NCBI RefSeq assembly: GCF_009901955.1
Contig: NZ_WUTS01000001.1
Span: forward strand, 682,001-746,000
Direction of reading: 5' to 3'
DNA: 64,000 bases
Origin: Halomonas icarae
Lineage (GTDB): Bacteria > Pseudomonadota > Gammaproteobacteria > Pseudomonadales > Halomonadaceae
The translations under genes and the position numbers were made by a program. How positions within the stretch are numbered: the stretch's first letter is position 1; each line of letters opens with the position of its first letter. Positions 40,640 through 49,274 of this stretch are shown here, in pieces. The notes beneath the pieces are model-generated. The model did not search any database. It was not told the DNA's origin and saw only the letters and a list, made by a program, of their open reading frames with translations.

Positions 40640-41551
40640 ATGATCAGACAACGCACCCTGAAGAACGTCATCCGCGCCACCGGCGTCGGCCTGCACTCCG
40701 GCAAGAAGGTCTACATGACCCTGCGGCCGGCGCCCGTGGATACCGGTATCGTCTTCGTGCGCACCGATCTGGACCCCGAGGTGCAGATTCCGGCACGAGC
40801 GGCACTGGTGACCGACACCACTTTATGCACCGCCCTGACCCACGACGGGGCCAAGGTCGCCACCGTTGAACACCTGATGTCGGCACTCGCTGGTCTGGGC
40901 ATCGATAACGCCTATGTGGACCTCAGCGCCGCCGAAGTGCCGATCATGGATGGCAGTGCCGGTCCCTTCGTGTTCCTGATCCAGTCGGCCGGTATCAGTG
41001 AACAGAATGCCGCCAAGAAGTTCATTCGCATCAAGCGTGAGCTCACGGTGAGAGATGGCGACAAGCAGGCGACCTTCCGACCCCACAAGGGCTTCAAGGT
41101 TGGCTTTTCCATCGACTTCGATCATCCGGTGTTCGAGAGCCAGACCCAGACCGCGATGGTGGACTTCTCCACCACCTCCTTCGTCAAGGAGGTGTCTCGA
41201 GCGCGGACCTTCGGCTTTATGCGCGATCTGGAGTACCTGCGCTCCAACAACCTCGCGCTGGGCGGCAGCCTGGACAACGCCATCGTCGTCGATGACTATC
41301 GAATCGTCAACGAAGGCGGTTTGCGTTACGACGATGAATTCGTCAAGCACAAGGTACTCGATGCCATCGGTGACCTCTACCAGCTGGGCTATAGCCTGAT
41401 CGGCGAATTCCACGGTGTGAAGTCCGGACACGCATTAAACAACCAGCTATGCCGCGCCTTGCTGGATCAGCCCGATAGCTATGAAATCGTCACCTTCGAG
41501 GAGGAGAGCGAGGTTGCCCCGATCTCCTTCGCGGCGCCCGCAATGGCCTGA
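40640..41551 (+). CDS. lpxC: UDP-3-O-acyl-N-acetylglucosamine deacetylase LpxC
   Basis: LpxC is the zinc enzyme for the committed step of lipid A synthesis. From ATG 40640 it has 303 residues, starting [20 protein letters not shown] like E. coli. Zinc ligands are seen in [16 protein letters not shown] and [16 protein letters not shown]; the catalytic segment [16 protein letters not shown] is intact. A GTG at 40604 in frame lies at the predicted transcription start and is rejected. The C-terminal residues end in AAPAMA; hydrophobic ends of LpxC are FtsH degradation signals in E. coli, so proteolytic control is possible here. Confidence 0.97.
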
Positions 41552-41594
41552 TCTTCCGGCATTCGCCGGGAGCGGCGATCGGTAAGCATCAGGA

Positions 41595-41626
41595 GAAAGG
41601 CCCGCCAGGTATCTGGCGGGCCTTTC
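41595..41626. terminator. Terminator between lpxC and dciA
   Basis: GAAAGGCCCGCCAG (41595-41608) and CTGGCGGGCCTTTC (41613-41626) form a 14-bp perfect stem with a 4-base loop. The stem ends in AAA/TTT, so it works as a terminator in both directions between these convergent genes. Confidence 0.88.
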
Positions 41627-41664
41627 TCGCTTGGCGGGTGCTGATTTCGGGAGTCGGTCTGGCT

Positions 41665-42126
41665 TTACGGCTCACGCTCGGCATGGGAGGCCAGTCGCTC
41701 GAGGGCGCGTCGCAGTCTCGGGTCTTCGGTGTCGGCGGCGCAGCTGGAGATCTCGTCGGCGGCATGAGCTGGCAGGTGACGCACCTGGCGTAGTGGTCTC
41801 CTGGGCGGGCGCACCGGTCTGACCTTCAGAGTGAATCCACGCACCGCCTCGAAGCCCTGCAGCTCGTGCAGCAGTGTCAGGAGTCGTGGCTGCTCATAGC
41901 GAAGTCGTGTCAACCAGGCGGCACCGTCGGCGATCAAGGTCAGCCGGCCATCCCGAAAGCCCCCGACGTGCAGGTGTTCACTCAGCTCCTGGGGGAGGTG
42001 GGCGCGCAGGTGGGACTGGGCGAGATCGATCATTCTTGCCATTCGCATCAATGAGCCGAGCTCGCCTCGTCCGCCCAGTAGCTGGGACATGGGCTGGGCG
42101 CGAAAGCGCTTAACCTTTATACTCAT
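41665..42126 (-). CDS. dciA: DUF721 family protein, likely helicase loader DciA
   Basis: DciA (DUF721) proteins load the replicative helicase DnaB in bacteria that lack DnaC/DnaI. The 153-residue protein starts MSIKVKRFRAQPMSQLLGG and has the conserved core HLHVGGFRDGRLTLIADGAAWLTRLRYEQPRLL, a KH-like fold with the WLTRLR motif, then a disordered C-terminus. Upstream of the ATG the frame stays open but is not family-like. It is convergent with lpxC and divergent from the secM-like gene, a position it also holds in Pseudomonas between lpxC and secA. Confidence 0.85.
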   Translation of the reverse strand: MSIKVKRFRAQPMSQLLGGRGELGSLMRMARMIDLAQSHLRAHLPQELSEHLHVGGFRDGRLTLIADGAAWLTRLRYEQPRLLTLLHELQGFEAVRGFTLKVRPVRPPRRPLRQVRHLPAHAADEISSCAADTEDPRLRRALERLASHAEREP

Positions 42127-42164
42127 GGGCTTGACTCTCTCGTCCCGCATCAGGCGGGCCAGAC

Positions 42165-42170
42165 GATAAT
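42165..42170 (+). promoter_or_regulatory. Possible -10 element upstream of the secM-like ORF
   Basis: GATAAT lies 54 bases before the ATG at 42224, within the 97-base gap divergent from dciA. No matching -35 is clear, but secA must be driven from this region or read through, since dciA points away and lpxC ends in a terminator. Confidence 0.35.
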
Positions 42171-42223
42171 GCAATGGGCCGGTAGCGCCCGTCAGACTAG
42201 CACGCCGGGAGCTCCTCGACAGC

Positions 42224-42595
42224 ATGGCCGTGACCCTCAGCCACTCGCCTGCCGTATTCGCCAGGCCCGCTCCAGCGCGGCGTCACGCCCGCTGGTGGCT
42301 GGCGGGCCTGCTGGTGGGGTGTCTGTTGCCCGCGGGCCTCGCCCAGGGAGATCTGGCCCGTCAGGCCGAGCGACTGGTGCAGGTGTGCATTCTCGCGCCC
42401 GCCATGATTCGTGCCAGCTCGCGGCTCAAGGCGCGTCGACGCAGGCGAGGGTGGTGGCCCCTGGTGCGACAATCCACCCTTTTACCGGTTGGCTCCCCGG
42501 CGGCCACTCCCGTGACAGTGGCCCAGGCGACCGCTGACCACGATGTCCTGACCCGCCGCGGCCCCCCTTTCTGCGTGGACATGCTGAATTCTTGA
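42224..42595 (+). CDS. Small exported-type protein upstream of secA, candidate SecM-like arrest peptide
   Basis: A 123-residue ORF occupies the secM position before secA. Seen: a basic N-region ([13 protein letters not shown]), a hydrophobic core ([17 protein letters not shown], about 26-42) like a signal peptide, a basic middle ([10 protein letters not shown]), and a C-terminal segment with TPVTVAQA (95-102) and RRGPP (111-115), then eight residues and the stop. Known: E. coli SecM has a signal sequence and stalls at a C-terminal segment with TPVWISQA followed by RAGP; RAPP motifs stall in other arrest peptides. Inferred: it monitors Sec export and controls secA. GGGAG (42208-42212) is a fair ribosome site. 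It is not alignable to SecM over its length, and an unrelated leader ORF is possible. Confidence 0.55.
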
Positions 42596-42637
42596 ATATT
42601 GCCAACCGCCCGGCGGTTGGCGCCATGCCATACGCAG
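42571..42637 (+). promoter_or_regulatory. Nested hairpin spanning the secM-like stop and secA leader
   Basis: Inner stem: GCCAACCGC (42601-42609) with GCGGTTGGC (42613-42621), 9 bp, 3-base loop. Outer stem: CTGCGTG (42571-42577) with TACGCAG (42631-42637), one G-U, continued by CATG (42580-42583) with CATG (42624-42627) across a small internal loop. The 3' arm ends 14 bases before the secA ATG, next to its weak ribosome site. A ribosome paused at the Gly-Pro-Pro codons (42560-42568) would cover the outer 5' arm. This mirrors the secM-secA switch of E. coli; function is inferred. Confidence 0.5.
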
Positions 42638-42651
42638 ATGACGGACTCTTC

Positions 42652-45384
42652 ATGATCAACTCCCTGTTACGCAAGGTCGTCGGCTCCAAGAACGACCGCG
42701 AAGTCAAGCGCATGAGCCGCCAGGTCGAGCGCGTCAATGTTCTCGAGAGCGAGCTCGGTGGGCTCGATGATGCGGCCTTGAAGGCGCGCACCGAAGCCTT
42801 CCGCGAGCGCCTCGCCGAAGGCGAGTCACTGGATGCCCTGCTGCCCGAGGCCTTCGCCACGGTGCGAGAGGCGGGCAAGCGCGTCATGGGCATGCGCCAC
42901 TTCGATGTTCAGATGATAGGCGGCATGACGCTTCACAATGGGCGCATCGCGGAGATGAAGACCGGGGAGGGCAAGACCCTGGTGGCGACCCTGGCGGTCT
43001 ATCTCAATGCCCTGCCCGGCAAGGGGGTGCATGTCGTCACCGTCAACGATTACCTGGCGCGACGTGATGCCCGGTGGATGCGGCCTCTCTATGAGTATCT
43101 CGGACTCAGCGTCGGCGTCATCTATGCCGGCCAGACCCCCGAAGAGAAGCGTGCCGCCTACGCCTGCGACATCACCTACGGCACCAATAACGAGTTCGGC
43201 TTCGACTATCTGCGGGACAACATGGCCTTCTCCCTGGAGGAGAAGGTCCAGCGCGGCCTGCACTACGCCATCGTCGATGAGGTGGACTCGATCCTGATCG
43301 ATGAGGCGCGCACGCCGCTGATCATCTCGGGAGCGGTGGACGAAAACACCGAACTCTACCGGGTGATCGATCGGCTGGCGGTGCACCTGGTTCAGGGGGA
43401 AGTGTCGGAAGACACCGATGCCCCGGTCGACGGCGACTTTATCCTGGACGAGAAGCACAAGCAGGTCGAGATCACCGAGAATGGCCACCACAAGGTCGAG
43501 GGGCTGATGCGCGAGCAGGGGCTGCTGGGCGAGGAGGACTCCCTCTATGCCGCCCAGAACCTCAATCTGCTGCAGCATATGCACTCCGCCCTGCGCGCCC
43601 GCCACCTCTACCACCGCGACGTCGACTATATCGTCAGCGAGGGGCAGGTGGTGATCGTCGACGAACATACCGGGCGTACCATGCCCGGCCGGCGCTGGTC
43701 CGAGGGGCTGCACCAGGCAGTGGAGGCCAAGGAGGGGGTCACCGTCCAGCGCGAGAGTCAGACCCTCGCCTCCACGACCTTCCAGAACTACTTCCGCCTC
43801 TACGAGAAGCTGGCGGGCATGACGGGCACCGCCGATACCGAGGCCTTCGAGTTCCGTCAGATCTATGGCCTCGATGTGGTGGTGATTCCCACCAACAAGC
43901 CACTGGTTCGCCGCGATCTCAACGATCTGGTCTATCTCACCGCCGAGGAGAAGTTCGAGGCGATCATCGAGGACGTCAAGGCCGAGACCGAAGCGGGCAG
44001 GCCGGTGCTGGTGGGTACCGCTTCCATCGAGACCTCGGAGTATCTCGCCAACCTGATGAAGCGAACTGGTCTCGCCTTCAATGTCCTCAACGCCAAACAG
44101 CACCAGAGCGAAGCCGAGATCATCGCCCAGGCCGGCCGCCCCGGCGCCATCACCATCGCCACCAACATGGCCGGGCGTGGCACCGATATCGTGCTCGGCG
44201 GCAACTGGGAGGCGGAGGTGGCCAAGCTCGATAACCCTTCCGCCGCGCAGATCGAACAGCTCAAGGTCGAGTGGCAGCAGCGCCATGAAGCCGTGCTGGC
44301 GGCCGGCGGGTTGCATGTGATCGGCTCCGAGCGCCACGAGTCGCGCCGCATCGATAACCAGCTACGCGGGCGCGCCGGCCGACAGGGCGACCCGGGCTCG
44401 ACCCGCTTCTTCCTGTCACTGGAAGACAGCCTGATGCGCCTGTTCGGCTCTGACCGGGTACAGCGCATGATGAAGGCCCTCGGCCTGGAGCACGGTGAGG
44501 CGATCGAGCACAAGATGGTCTCCAATGCGGTGGAGCGCGCCCAGAAGAAGGTCGAGAGTCGCAACTTCGATATCCGCAAGCAGCTGCTCGAGTATGACGA
44601 CGTGGCCAACGATCAGCGCAGCGTGATCTACGAGCAACGCAACGAAGTGCTCGCCGCCGAACAGGTCTCTGCCGCAGTAGCGGGTATTCGCGAGGAGGTC
44701 ATGGATCTCGCGATCAGCGACTATGTGCCGCCCCAGAGTCTGCCCGAGCAGTGGGACCTGGCCGGGCTCCAGGAGTACCTCAAGTCCGAGTTCAACCTGG
44801 ATGTCCCCGTGGTGCAGTGGTCCGAGGAGGATGAGCGCTTCCACGAGGAACAGCTGCGCGAGCGCCTGCAGGCCCTGCACCGTGAGGCCTACGAAGAGAA
44901 GGTGGAGCAGGCCGGTAGCGAGCTGATGCGCCGCTTCGAGAAGCAGGTGATGCTGCAGGTGCTGGATACCCGCTGGAAGGAGCACCTGCAGTCCATGGAC
45001 CACCTGCGCCGGGGGATCCACCTGCGCGGCTATGCGCAGAAGAACCCCAAGCAGGAGTACAAGCGTGAGGCCTTCGAGCTGTTCCAGAACCTTCTGGCCA
45101 ATATCAAGGCGGACGTGACACGGATCCTGAGTCATGTGCAGGTGCGGCGGCCCGAGGAGGTCGAGGAGCTGGAGCGTCAGCGCCGCGAGGCACTGGAGCG
45201 CGAGAAGGCGACCGCGGCGAGCCGTCATGACTCGCCCGACGCCGCCACGGGTGAGCAGGAGGCGGCGGCGCCGGCATCCGAGGGGCGTCCGGTACGCCGG
45301 GAAGGTCCCAAGGTGGGGCGCAACGATCCATGCCCCTGTGGATCCGGCAAGAAGTACAAGCAGTGCTGTGGCAAGCTGAGCTGA
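42652..45384 (+). CDS. secA: Preprotein translocase ATPase SecA
   Basis: SecA is the motor that drives preproteins through SecYEG. From ATG 42652 ([20 protein letters not shown]) it has 910 residues. Motifs: [20 protein letters not shown] (Walker A), [20 protein letters not shown] (Walker B), [14 protein letters not shown] and [19 protein letters not shown] in the second helicase domain, and the C-terminal zinc finger [17 protein letters not shown] that binds SecB. In-frame upstream codons at 42592 (TTG) and 42625 (ATG) lie inside the leader hairpin and outside the conserved region. No strong Shine-Dalgarno precedes the ATG, in keeping with regulated initiation. Confidence 0.98.
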
Positions 45385-45420: not shown

Positions 45421-46638
45421 ATGGCAGTGGGTGATGCGAGCTTTCCCGCGATGCCGGCAATTTCCGGCCTTCGGCTGGGAACCGCCATGGCGGGGATCAA
45501 GAAGAGCGGTCGTCGGGATCTGGTGGTGATCGAGGCCCCCGAGGGTGCCCGGGTGGCGGGTGCCTTCACCCGTAATGCCTTCTGTGCGGCTCCGGTGACG
45601 GTGGCCCGGGAGCACCTGGCTAGCGGTGAGGTGCCTCGCTATCTGCTGGTCAATACCGGTAACGCCAATGCCGGCACCGGCGAGCCGGGTCTGCGTGACG
45701 CCCGTGACTGCTGCGCCGAACTGGCCCGGCTGACCGGGGTGAGTGCCCGGTGCGTGCTGCCCTTCTCTACCGGTGTGATCGGTGAGCCACTCCCCATGGA
45801 GAGGCTGCTTGCCGGCCTGCCGGGTGCGCTCGACAGCCTCGGCGACGACGCCGAGTCCTGGTTGCGGGCCGGCGAGGGCATCCTGACGACCGACACTCGT
45901 CCCAAGGGAGCCAGTGTCACCCTCGATATCGCGGGTGACAAAGTGGTCATCAACGGAATTGCCAAGGGCTCGGGGATGATCCAGCCCAACATGGCGACCA
46001 TGCTGGCCTTCGTGGCCACCGATGCTAGCCTTGATCAGTCGCTGCTCGACAGCCTGCTGCGCGAGGCCGTGGACCGCTCCTTCAACTGCATCACGGTCGA
46101 TGGGGATACCTCCACCAACGACGCCTGCGTACTGATCAGCACCCAGCAAGGCCCGGTGATTGAAGGGGAGAGCGCGCTCGCCACCTTCCGTACCGGCCTG
46201 CAACACGTGATGATCGAGCTGGCTCAGGCGATCGTGCGTGACGGTGAGGGTGCCACCAAGTTCGTCACCCTCCGGGTCGATGGTGCCACCAGTCGACAGG
46301 AAGCCCTAGATGTGGCCTTTACCGTGGCCAATTCGCCCCTGGTCAAGACCGCGCTGCATGCCTCCGATGCCAACTGGGGGCGCATCCTCGCGGCGGTAGG
46401 GCGCGCTCCGGTCGACGACTTCGATGTCTCGCGGGTAAGCATCGATCTGGGCGACGTGCGGCTGGTGGAGGGCGGGGGGCGTGCCTCGAGCTATACCGAG
46501 GAGGCCGGTAGCGCGGTAATGGCGCGCGAGGAGATCCCGATCCGCATCGCCCTCGATCGCGGCGATGAGAGTGCCACGGTGTGGAGCACCGATCTCTCCC
46601 ACGACTATGTCAGCATCAACGCCGACTACCGCAGCTAG
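45421..46638 (+). CDS. argJ: Bifunctional ornithine acetyltransferase / N-acetylglutamate synthase ArgJ
   Basis: ArgJ transfers the acetyl group from N-acetylornithine to glutamate (and in bifunctional forms uses acetyl-CoA) in arginine synthesis. The 405-residue precursor self-cleaves before the catalytic Thr in the motif KGSGMIQPNMATMLAF. Other family segments: VNTGNANAGTGEPGLRDA, LPFSTGVIGEPLPM and TVDGDTSTNDA. GGAGAGAAG precedes the ATG. It lies 36 bases after secA and could be cotranscribed with it. Confidence 0.96.
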   Translation: MAVGDASFPAMPAISGLRLGTAMAGIKKSGRRDLVVIEAPEGARVAGAFTRNAFCAAPVTVAREHLASGEVPRYLLVNTGNANAGTGEPGLRDARDCCAELARLTGVSARCVLPFSTGVIGEPLPMERLLAGLPGALDSLGDDAESWLRAGEGILTTDTRPKGASVTLDIAGDKVVINGIAKGSGMIQPNMATMLAFVATDASLDQSLLDSLLREAVDRSFNCITVDGDTSTNDACVLISTQQGPVIEGESALATFRTGLQHVMIELAQAIVRDGEGATKFVTLRVDGATSRQEALDVAFTVANSPLVKTALHASDANWGRILAAVGRAPVDDFDVSRVSIDLGDVRLVEGGGRASSYTEEAGSAVMAREEIPIRIALDRGDESATVWSTDLSHDYVSINADYRS

Positions 46639-46717
46639 GCTGGAACACGGTCAGTGCCGTGAGATCCGGTCAGACACAGACCCCGCGCCGCCGTGCGCGG
46701 ATACGTTGGAAGAGCGA

Positions 46718-47674
46718 ATGAACGCAATGGTAAAGAGACGGGTGCATGTGGCGGCGGCGGCCATCATCAGCGCCGATGGCAGCGAGGTGCTCATAGCGCG
46801 CCGCCCCAGCAATGTCGATCATGGTGGCCTCTGGGAGTTTCCCGGCGGCAAGCTGGCGCCCTATGAAACGGGCCTGGGTGGGCTTAAGCGCGAGCTTCAC
46901 GAGGAGCTGGGCATCGAGATCCGGAGAGCTCAACCCTTGATCCGCATCCACCATGAGTATCCCGACAAGCATATCCTGCTGGATGTCTGGCAGGTCCATG
47001 ACTTCTCCGGTGAACCCTTCGGTCGCGAGGGCCAGGCAGTGCGCTGGGTACCCATGGAGGAGCTGGTCAATTACCCCTTCCCGGCGGCCAATCTGCCGAT
47101 CCTGCGCGCGGTAATGCTGCCCACCGAGTACCTTATCACCGGCGAGGAAGAGGATGAGGCGCTGTTCGACGAACGTCTCGAACGCGCCCTGGTGGAGGAT
47201 GGGGTACGCCTGGTGCAGCTGCGCGCCAAGCAGCTGGACAGGGCTGCCTACCTGGCTCGCGCGGAATCGGCGCTGGCACGCTGCCGGCAGTACGGTGCCC
47301 GTCTGATGCTCAATGCAGACCCCGAGCTGCTCGAGGCGGTGGATGCCGACGGTGTCCACCTGACCAGTGAGCGCCTGATGCAGTTGGAGCGCCGCCCCAT
47401 CGCCGAGGGCAAGTGGCTCTCTGCCTCCACCCATGATCGCGAACAGCTCGTTCAGGCTGGCAGGCTCGGTTGTGACTTCGTGACCCTCTCGCCGCTACGT
47501 ACCACGCCGTCGCACCCCGATGTGCCGCCCGTGGGCTGGCATGACTTTCAGGAGCTGGTGGAGCGTGCCACCATGCCCGTCTTCGCGCTGGGTGGCATGA
47601 CACGTCATGATGCCAACCATGCGCGCGCTGTCGGGGCTCAGGGGGTCGCATCGATTCGCGACTTCTGGAAGTGA
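46718..47674 (+). CDS. Nudix hydrolase fused to a thiamine-phosphate-synthase-like domain
   Basis: The 318-residue protein combines an N-terminal MutT-like Nudix domain (about 1-130), with the complete Nudix box GKLAPYETGLGGLKRELHEELG, and a C-terminal ThiE/TenI-like barrel (about 140-315; LVQLRAKQLDRAAYLARAE, ADGVHLTSERL, VTLSPLRTTPSHP, PVFALGGMTRHDA). Known: MutT clears 8-oxo-dGTP, and Nudix-ThiE fusions are found next to argJ and secA in many gammaproteobacteria. The ThiE part keeps a phosphate-binding GG but its catalysis is unproven. TTGGAAGAGC gives the ribosome site. Confidence 0.9.
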   Translation: MNAMVKRRVHVAAAAIISADGSEVLIARRPSNVDHGGLWEFPGGKLAPYETGLGGLKRELHEELGIEIRRAQPLIRIHHEYPDKHILLDVWQVHDFSGEPFGREGQAVRWVPMEELVNYPFPAANLPILRAVMLPTEYLITGEEEDEALFDERLERALVEDGVRLVQLRAKQLDRAAYLARAESALARCRQYGARLMLNADPELLEAVDADGVHLTSERLMQLERRPIAEGKWLSASTHDREQLVQAGRLGCDFVTLSPLRTTPSHPDVPPVGWHDFQELVERATMPVFALGGMTRHDANHARAVGAQGVASIRDFWK

Positions 47675-47753: not shown

Positions 47754-49274
47754 TCAGCGACCCGGGGTGGCGGGGCGGTTCGCCGCCTGGCGTTGCTCCT
47801 GCCAGGCGAAGTAGAGGAACAGGACGCCCATCACCAGGTAGCCGAGGGTATAGTCTCCCGCCGCATTGATGGCGAGCTTCGGCGCGTGCATCAGCCCCAC
47901 GAAGGAGAAACCCGCGGCCACGGCGGCGAAGGCGGCGGCGCGGCGGAACTGGTGGTCGATCACCGACACGGTCATGGCACCGAGGAGGATTGCCGTGAAC
48001 ATGGCGCCCTGGCCCAGGGGAACCACCCCACTGGAGATGCCGGACACGGTTTCCTCGGCGGCGCGGTTGAAGCGAGTCATCACGTAGTTGGCAAAGTAGG
48101 GCAGCATGGCCAGCGCCACCGCCGGATAGTAGCGGGTGTCGTTGGACTGGAAGGCGGTGGCGATCATCGACATGCCGACGAATACCAGGATGGGGGCGAC
48201 CACCGATACCGGAATGATGGCGGCGAGGGCGGCGATCAGGCCGAACATGGTAGCCAGGGCGTAGACGGCACCGTTGAGGAGGCTGTAGCCGCGGCCAGCG
48301 CCCATCCACTTGGCGCCCACCGTGGCGATATAGACGGTGGTGGGAAAGACGCCACCGAACAGGGCGCCGAGCATGGTGCCCACGCCATCCACCGCCTGGC
48401 ACTCGCGCACATCATACTTGTCGCCGGCGGCCTCCATGGCCTCGACGTTATTCATGGTCTCGATGGCGTTGTACAGGGTGATCGGTAGCACCACGGTAAG
48501 CACCGCCAGCATGCCGGTGAACAGTAGCCCCAGCCCCTCCAGCCAGGCCAGGTTGGGCAGTAGCGGATAGAAGCCGAGATGGGTGAAGGCATCGCTGAAG
48601 CGCTCGCCACCCGCATCCCCGATCAGGTAGGCCATGGCGGTTCCCACCACGATGGCGAACAGCGAGGTGGGCAGTCGCAGAGGCATCGCCACCCTGGCCA
48701 CCAGGCCGACGATGATGATCGCCAGCACCAGCAGGCCGATCACCGGCATCTCCAGGGTCTTGAACAGCATCTCGCCGGCGATGAAGGTCAGCGCCACCCC
48801 CGCCACGGCGCCCAGCATGGCGGCTCGGGGTAGATGGTGCTGGACCCAGCGGCCGATCAGGCTGATGATCGCCTCGATCGCCCCGCTGATGAAGCAGGCG
48901 GCCACCGCCACCTTCCAGGCCAGTTCGGCATCGCCGGTGAGCTGCTTGGCGGGCAGCAGCACGCCGAACAGGAAGACGAACATCACCGGGGTGGAGATGC
49001 CGTAGGAGAGCGCGGTGACATCGGCACGGTTCTCCTTGCGCGCCAGGCGTGCCGCGCTCCAGGCGTAGTAGAAGTTGCCGACCATCACCGCCACGGCGGC
49101 ACCGGGCAGCACCTGGCCGAAGACGATCGACGCCGGAAAGTCCATGCCAAGCATGGTGATGGCGATGATCACGAAGTTGGCGATATTGTTCTGGAACAGG
49201 GCGAAGAAGGCGTCGGTGTCCTCCTTCTTGTACCAGGGGTAATGGACCGAGTGATGTACGGGGGGAGCCGCCAT
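47754..49274 (-). CDS. NCS2-family xanthine/uracil-type permease
   Basis: This is a nucleobase:cation symporter-2 type inner-membrane carrier of 506 residues with 12-14 membrane segments. Family traits are the early DFPASIVFGQVLPGAAVAV segment, the QNNIANF N-terminal helix, YNAIETMNNVEAMEAAGDKY (the conserved helix 8 Glu region), and PTTVYIATVGAKWMGAGRGY. Substrate cannot be assigned: xanthine, uracil or hypoxanthine are all possible, and the N-terminal KKEDTDAFFALFQNN is less usual. It is a single gene with its own 217-base upstream gap shared with the aminotransferase terminator. Confidence 0.85.
   Translation of the reverse strand: MAAPPVHHSVHYPWYKKEDTDAFFALFQNNIANFVIIAITMLGMDFPASIVFGQVLPGAAVAVMVGNFYYAWSAARLARKENRADVTALSYGISTPVMFVFLFGVLLPAKQLTGDAELAWKVAVAACFISGAIEAIISLIGRWVQHHLPRAAMLGAVAGVALTFIAGEMLFKTLEMPVIGLLVLAIIIVGLVARVAMPLRLPTSLFAIVVGTAMAYLIGDAGGERFSDAFTHLGFYPLLPNLAWLEGLGLLFTGMLAVLTVVLPITLYNAIETMNNVEAMEAAGDKYDVRECQAVDGVGTMLGALFGGVFPTTVYIATVGAKWMGAGRGYSLLNGAVYALATMFGLIAALAAIIPVSVVAPILVFVGMSMIATAFQSNDTRYYPAVALAMLPYFANYVMTRFNRAAEETVSGISSGVVPLGQGAMFTAILLGAMTVSVIDHQFRRAAAFAAVAAGFSFVGLMHAPKLAINAAGDYTLGYLVMGVLFLYFAWQEQRQAANRPATPGR

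Follow-up and report, generated by a model that had tools for sequence, protein, structure and literature searches.

The open reading frame (ORF) directly before secA in Halomonas icarae very probably encodes a Sec-monitoring translation-arrest peptide. We analysed a 64,000-nucleotide stretch of the H. icarae genome (contig NZ_WUTS01000001.1, positions 682,001 to 746,000 of the forward strand; hereafter called the window). The ORF occupies positions 42224–42595 of the plus strand and encodes a protein of 123 residues followed by a TGA stop codon (42593–42595). We place this protein in the RAPP/RGPP class of arrest peptides (RQH family, uA_RQH_Pseudomonadales), and propose with considerable confidence that it raises secA translation when export slows. 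The evidence is of four kinds: the protein has a signal-like segment, it carries a frozen RGPP or RAPP motif near its C-terminus, its gene lies before secA, and the RNA encoding its tail is complementary to the RNA that precedes the secA start. A preliminary description of the window had proposed an arrest peptide here from its place before secA, its export-signal-like start and its C-terminal motif, and in all likelihood that proposal was right.

Conservation is concentrated in three parts of the protein. An alignment of 28 homologues (A1), hand-picked for spread from 51 listed homologues, reveals a conserved signal-like core, a conserved mid-body block and a conserved C-terminal end; between block and end, and again beyond RGPP, the sequence varies. 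The signal-like hydrophobic segment (42293–42343, plus strand, residues 24–40) follows a basic n-region, and its alignment columns are invariant or nearly so. Judged from sequence and hydropathy, it is a putative signal, with a hydropathy peak of 2.14 over 15 residues. The mid-body block (42368–42442, plus strand, residues 49–73) has the consensus ERxVQxCILAPALIRASSRLxARRR. Because it lies 41–65 residues ahead of the predicted P site, it should have emerged when the ribosome stalls, and we expect it to sit just outside the exit tunnel at that point. We expect the peptide itself to adopt an extended or disordered form. The preliminary description had held that a conserved signal, a frozen end and a weakly conserved body across the family would support its proposal. 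Signal and end behave in this way, and so does the body with the exception of the one mid-body block.

Midway along the signal core lies Cys33 (42320–42322), an invariant residue that has the context L[VFIL][GST]C in all 122 readable unique sequences. We considered a lipoprotein signal and rejected it, given that a PROSITE lipobox pattern fits 8 of the 122 only.

The arrest segment (42539–42568, plus strand, residues 106–115) ends in RGPP (42557–42568). By analogy with published toeprints, the predicted P-site codon is 42563–42565 (Pro114) and the predicted A-site codon is 42566–42568 (Pro115). We examined this motif in 174 loci, which yield 123 unique proteins (one genome may occur under two identifiers). 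RGPP is found within 40 residues of the C-terminus in 119 of the 123, and RAPP in 2. The remaining two, L167 and L163, also carry RGPP, which in L167 is followed by 44 residues. In L163 the signal and RGPP lie in different frames, possibly through an assembly frameshift; the genome is of low quality (86 percent complete, 6 percent contaminated). Glycine has changed to alanine twice at the RGPP site, and its amino acids are otherwise nearly fixed. All six arginine codons and all four proline codons are used. Since the amino acids hardly vary while synonymous codons vary freely, we conclude that selection acts on the peptide. The two RAPP carriers, L113 (Halomonas litopenaei SN20-17) and G073, are both divergent members; G073 is the one genome read out of six in its genus.

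Directly ahead of the motif stands arginine in 106 of 121 homologues, glutamine in 8, proline in 6 and cysteine in 1. Because 15 of the 121 have one of the last three, the motif is RGPP/RAPP and not R-x-G-P. The R-x-G-P register of the preliminary description is indeed missing from homologues with TQRGPP, TPRGPP or PRAPP. That description had also likened TPVTVAQA to a block of the E. coli SecM arrest segment. Its layout was correct, with TPVTVAQA at residues 95–102, RRGPP at residues 111–115 and eight residues between them. The parallel did not hold up, as the block can be made out in none but the closest relatives, both in the 28-sequence alignment and among further listed homologues. On the basis of its lack of conservation in that alignment, we ruled out a role for TPVTVAQA in the arrest motif. 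Downstream of the motif, the tail measures 2–21 residues (median 5; 121 homologues).

Arrest peptides of this kind have been published before; the Halomonas peptide adds a well-supported example to that class and does not found a new one. According to the available text of their 2024 paper, Fujiwara et al. searched small upstream ORFs (uORFs) of secA, secDF or yidC for three features, namely an N-terminal signal or transmembrane segment, a spacer of over 30 residues and C-terminal conservation; the RQH family comprises such uORFs with RAPP-like ends (PMC10987492). One of its groups, uA_RQH_Pseudomonadales, lies upstream of secA, and a representative with R109GPP stalls in the PURE systems of E. 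coli and of B. subtilis alike, with a fraction above 0.9 (PMC10987492). In toeprints of RQH members the P site always held the third residue of the motif (PMC10987492). The suggestion in the preliminary description that no secM had been described near Pseudomonas is, for SecM-like arrest peptides, outdated by this publication. In the portion available of a 2025 paper in The EMBO Journal, RAPP and RGPP are described as versatile arrest-supporting cores, arrest is generally most robust with RGPP, and proteomes show a strong avoidance of RAPP-like motifs (PMC12992588). The exchange of RGPP for RAPP at the secA leader fits this rule of two versatile cores. From the published RQH and RGPP results we therefore predict that the Halomonas segment stalls at Pro114/Pro115.

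How close is the match to the published group? Like uA_RQH_Pseudomonadales, the Halomonas peptide is encoded by a small uORF directly before secA, has a putative N-terminal export signal and a C-terminal RGPP, and belongs to the GTDB order Pseudomonadales. It also has a spacer of over 30 residues: the distance from the signal cysteine to the motif arginine is 75–82 residues (median 79). On the order, the accessible text of the taxonomy paper states that GTDB moved most Oceanospirillales into Pseudomonadales, with Halomonadaceae among the merged families (PMC7498684). The searched text of Fujiwara et al. names no organism for uA_RQH_Pseudomonadales (PMC10987492), so that we infer the identity of the two. 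The published group is probably the Halomonadaceae peptide family, because no signal-bearing small uORF ending in RxPP was found before secA in 65 loci representing 42 further families of Pseudomonadales. These loci are part of 121 sampled non-Halomonadaceae genomes with secA, and some of the contigs are short. Short ORFs with an RxPP-like end do occur in six of the 65 (L200, L220, L232, L241, L246 and L247). None of them has a hydrophobic segment near that of the arrest ORF (maxima −0.53 to 1.39, against 2.14), and at every locus except L246 there is overlap with a longer ORF read in a different frame.

The peptides ApdA, ApdP and ApcA (RAPP/RAPG) share with the Halomonas peptide a RAPP-like arrest core with the third residue in the P site. 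Unlike it, they are found in Actinobacteriota and Alphaproteobacteria, ahead of secDF2 or yidC2, according to the same available text (PMC10987492). Our literature search found no paper joining arrest peptide, secM and Halomonas, and a search on Halomonas and secM returned a single paper, unrelated as judged by title and start of abstract; for RGPP arrest peptides and secA it led to the two arrest-peptide papers cited above.

We propose the following mechanism. The signal sequence would direct the nascent chain to the Sec machinery. During brisk export the chain would be pulled and its translation completed. When export is slow, the ribosome would halt, its P site occupied by Pro114 and its A site by Pro115. 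Once stalled, it would cover roughly ten nucleotides immediately following RGPP, a stretch that may otherwise pair with the RNA before the secA start; the freed RNA would allow more secA translation. Stalling of the Halomonas peptide itself, its release by export and its control of secA are the steps that we infer. For comparison, the available text of Fujiwara et al. reports induction of the downstream gene for a single arrest peptide; this is uDF_RQH_Enterobacterales before secDF2, not the secA one, and there arrest opens a stem-loop (PMC10987492).

The predicted RNA fold has the parts that such a switch would use, all on the plus strand. The C-terminal tail codons and stop (42569–42595) encode an unconserved peptide; their nucleotides supply the 5′ arm of an outer stem (CUGCGU GG a CAUG, 42571–42583), much of which lies within the footprint to be expected of a ribosome stalled at Pro114. 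The predicted inner hairpin (GCCAACCGC-CCG-GCGGUUGGC) spans 42601–42621. The 3′ arm of the outer stem (CAUGCC au ACGCAG, 42624–42637) stands directly 5′ of the secA Shine-Dalgarno (SD) sequence, whose likely core, GGA (42643–42645), is invariant in the 25 sequences of a second alignment (A2).

Evidence for this pairing comes from 96 unique leaders taken from loci L001–L150, with identical leaders merged. Loci L140, L143 and L148–L150 were left out, having no secA start by the pattern used, as were L002 and L058, the pattern demanding W[WL]LA (L002 has WWLTG). Alignments A2 and A3 are hand-picked clades of these leaders, and L025 is excluded from A3. Duplexes between tail and pre-secA region average −14.3 kcal/mol within a genome and −11.9 kcal/mol between genomes, a value for own pairs that was reached by none of 5,000 permutations. 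The own-pair effect persists for tail windows up to 6 nucleotides to either side of the stall site (z −5.0 to −9.2); at −12 and +9 it is absent. With one sequence per cluster, the median p is 0.000 for 26, 35 and 47 clusters, 0.007 for 17 and 0.017 for 9. In 9 of the 17 clusters, among them that of the window, pairs from one genome outdo cross pairs of both kinds.

Foreign tails raise predicted access to the secA start in 62 of the 96 leaders (p 0.00002, relatedness ignored), and the swapped-tail control over all 96 related leaders gives p 0.0008 and 0.00002. When the ribosome is represented by a mask and 60 nucleotides of upstream RNA are included, mean SD access rises from 0.38 to 0.48 across the 96 leaders. 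At the window locus (L001), with the RNA begun at the motif, the unpaired fraction of the SD rises from 0.29 to 0.43 once the ribosome-covered part is removed. The same local test applied to E. coli secM–secA gives a rise from 0.27 to 0.44, so that a small effect is what the method yields for a proven case.

Several results weigh against the proposed switch. With the tail window at +12 or +18 nucleotides the effect is reversed, cross pairs having the better energy (z +3.9 and +2.2). With 5 clusters the median p is 0.097, and the swapped-tail control taken by cluster gives p 0.098. Eight of the 17 clusters (1–4, 6, 8, 15 and 16) lack an own-pair advantage in at least one direction. No covariation beyond that of shuffles was detected within the clade of the window (25 sequences). 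Nor does the window locus gain access when 60 nucleotides of upstream RNA are folded with it (SD 0.49 to 0.43); the mask result thus depends on the stretch folded, as the 60-nucleotide and motif-start folds differ. Finally, a consensus scan of 41500–43000 found no sigma-70-like promoter. Taken by itself, the fold of the window leader is not unusually stable (z −1.09). On these models an RNA switch is likely in the clade of the window, and unproven elsewhere.

The ORF is widespread in the family. Homologues are present in all 37 genomes of its own genus and in 257 of 275 genomes of the family (E up to 0.001). The 18 family genomes without a match are 16 from four genera and two incomplete ones, in which the search for secA was likewise empty. 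Among 390 genomes of the order, a profile search had hits in 18, every one of them in Halomonadaceae. A scan that recorded titles kept 80 loci of 174 relatives among 260 candidate stretches, and the titles of those 80 name Halomonas, Billgrantia, Vreelandella, Litchfieldella, Onishia and Modicisalibacter. On the strength of those six genus titles we identify the family as Halomonadaceae.

A different gene precedes secA in the ORF-lacking genomes read. We read eight of the 16 ORF-lacking genomes of the four genera (L170, L172, L173, L174, L176, L177, L178 and L179), and all eight have an ORF for an M23 peptidase before secA on the same strand; in L172 it lies more than 420 nucleotides upstream. 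An M23-peptidase-like ORF is also found in 49 of the 65 secA loci of other families, by a loose HxH test. On the simplest story, the arrest ORF would have taken the place of the M23 gene in the ancestor of the remaining Halomonadaceae. Descent of the ORF from the N-terminus of an M23 peptidase was considered and rejected, the one M23 protein that we compared having no similarity to it.

Could the peptide sense something else? The invariant signal cysteine and the mid-body block seem more than a plain SecM-type peptide needs, and other RAPP/RGPP peptides also precede genes outside localization pathways, according to the available text of the 2025 paper (PMC12992588). Both points would suit an arrest peptide whose input is not SecA-dependent export but, for example, YidC, the maturation of lipoproteins or the salt-dependent export of halophiles, secA then being one of its outputs. 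We consider this improbable, because the lipobox pattern fits so few of the sequences and the ORF stands directly before secA wherever a secA start was located. An ordinary small exported protein that has a conserved C-terminal motif and causes no arrest is very improbable: RAPP is the only substitute for RGPP seen, and the tail after the motif is not conserved as protein. A diverged true SecM orthologue (PF06558/PF10818) would explain the place before secA, the signal-like start and the Arg/Pro C-terminal end, and yet is scarcely credible, given that none of the 28 homologues matches either model at E≤1 where E. coli SecM, the positive control, matches PF06558 at 4e-58 and PF10818 at 7e-4, that the hhalign probability against SecM is 0.07 percent, that FxxxxWIxxxxGIRAGP is absent from the Halomonas peptide, and that an M23-type gene precedes secA in most other-family loci and in the ORF-lacking family genomes read.

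We accordingly rejected homology to SecM, with its models unmatched in the 28 homologues and the profile comparison null. Since an M23-type gene holds the place in those other genomes, there is no visible descent from SecM. The arrest peptide that we propose nevertheless resembles E. coli SecM in several respects: it precedes secA, has a signal-like start, would arrest near its C-terminus, is followed by a predicted intergenic stem-loop before secA, and behaves similarly in the fold test. It differs in having no detectable sequence relation, in RGPP replacing RAGP, and in the expected P-site residue, which is proline and not glycine.

A more elaborate version of our proposal is speculative, and we think it rather unlikely as a whole. 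It holds that the tail is mainly a replaceable RNA arm rewired together with the pre-secA region several times while the peptide core stayed frozen, that the ORF replaced the M23 gene in the ancestor of most Halomonadaceae, and that the cysteine and the mid-body block add a second input to Sec sensing, for example lipoprotein export or salt.

Three observations are new here: the better predicted pairing of tail and pre-secA region within a genome than between genomes (9 of 17 clusters), the RGPP/RAPP exchange in two divergent homologues, and the M23 gene in eight ORF-lacking genomes. If the proposed control of secA is true, nearly a whole family of halophiles would possess an export-feedback switch for this gene. 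Some Halomonadaceae serve as industrial chassis. The 123 unique sequences form a natural set that separates peptide-level from RNA-level constraint on one arrest leader. The value of the system lies in its breadth, in its pattern of a frozen core with a rewired arm, and in its testability.

The gene order around the ORF is lpxC (plus), dciA (minus), arrest ORF (plus) and secA (plus). The gene lpxC, named from its sequence, ends at 41551. The divergent upstream neighbour dciA (41665–42126, minus strand; PF05258) starts with MSIKVKRF at 42126. A GGGAG at 42207–42211 (plus strand) is a possible SD of the arrest ORF, with a long spacing of 12 nucleotides before the ATG. In the window, as in the homologues, the ORF is a small uORF with no annotated function directly before secA on the same strand; Pfam and NCBIfam gave no credible family for it or for the 28 homologues scanned. 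Its stop is separated by 56 nucleotides from the ATG (42652) of secA (42652–45384, plus strand), the gene thought to be regulated, in which the SecA domains were matched. Further along the window, a 369-residue ORF at 46565–47674 presumably encodes a fusion of a Nudix (MutT) domain with a thiamine-phosphate synthase, and a 506-residue ORF on the minus strand (47754–49274) encodes what we take to be a nucleobase/purine-type permease.
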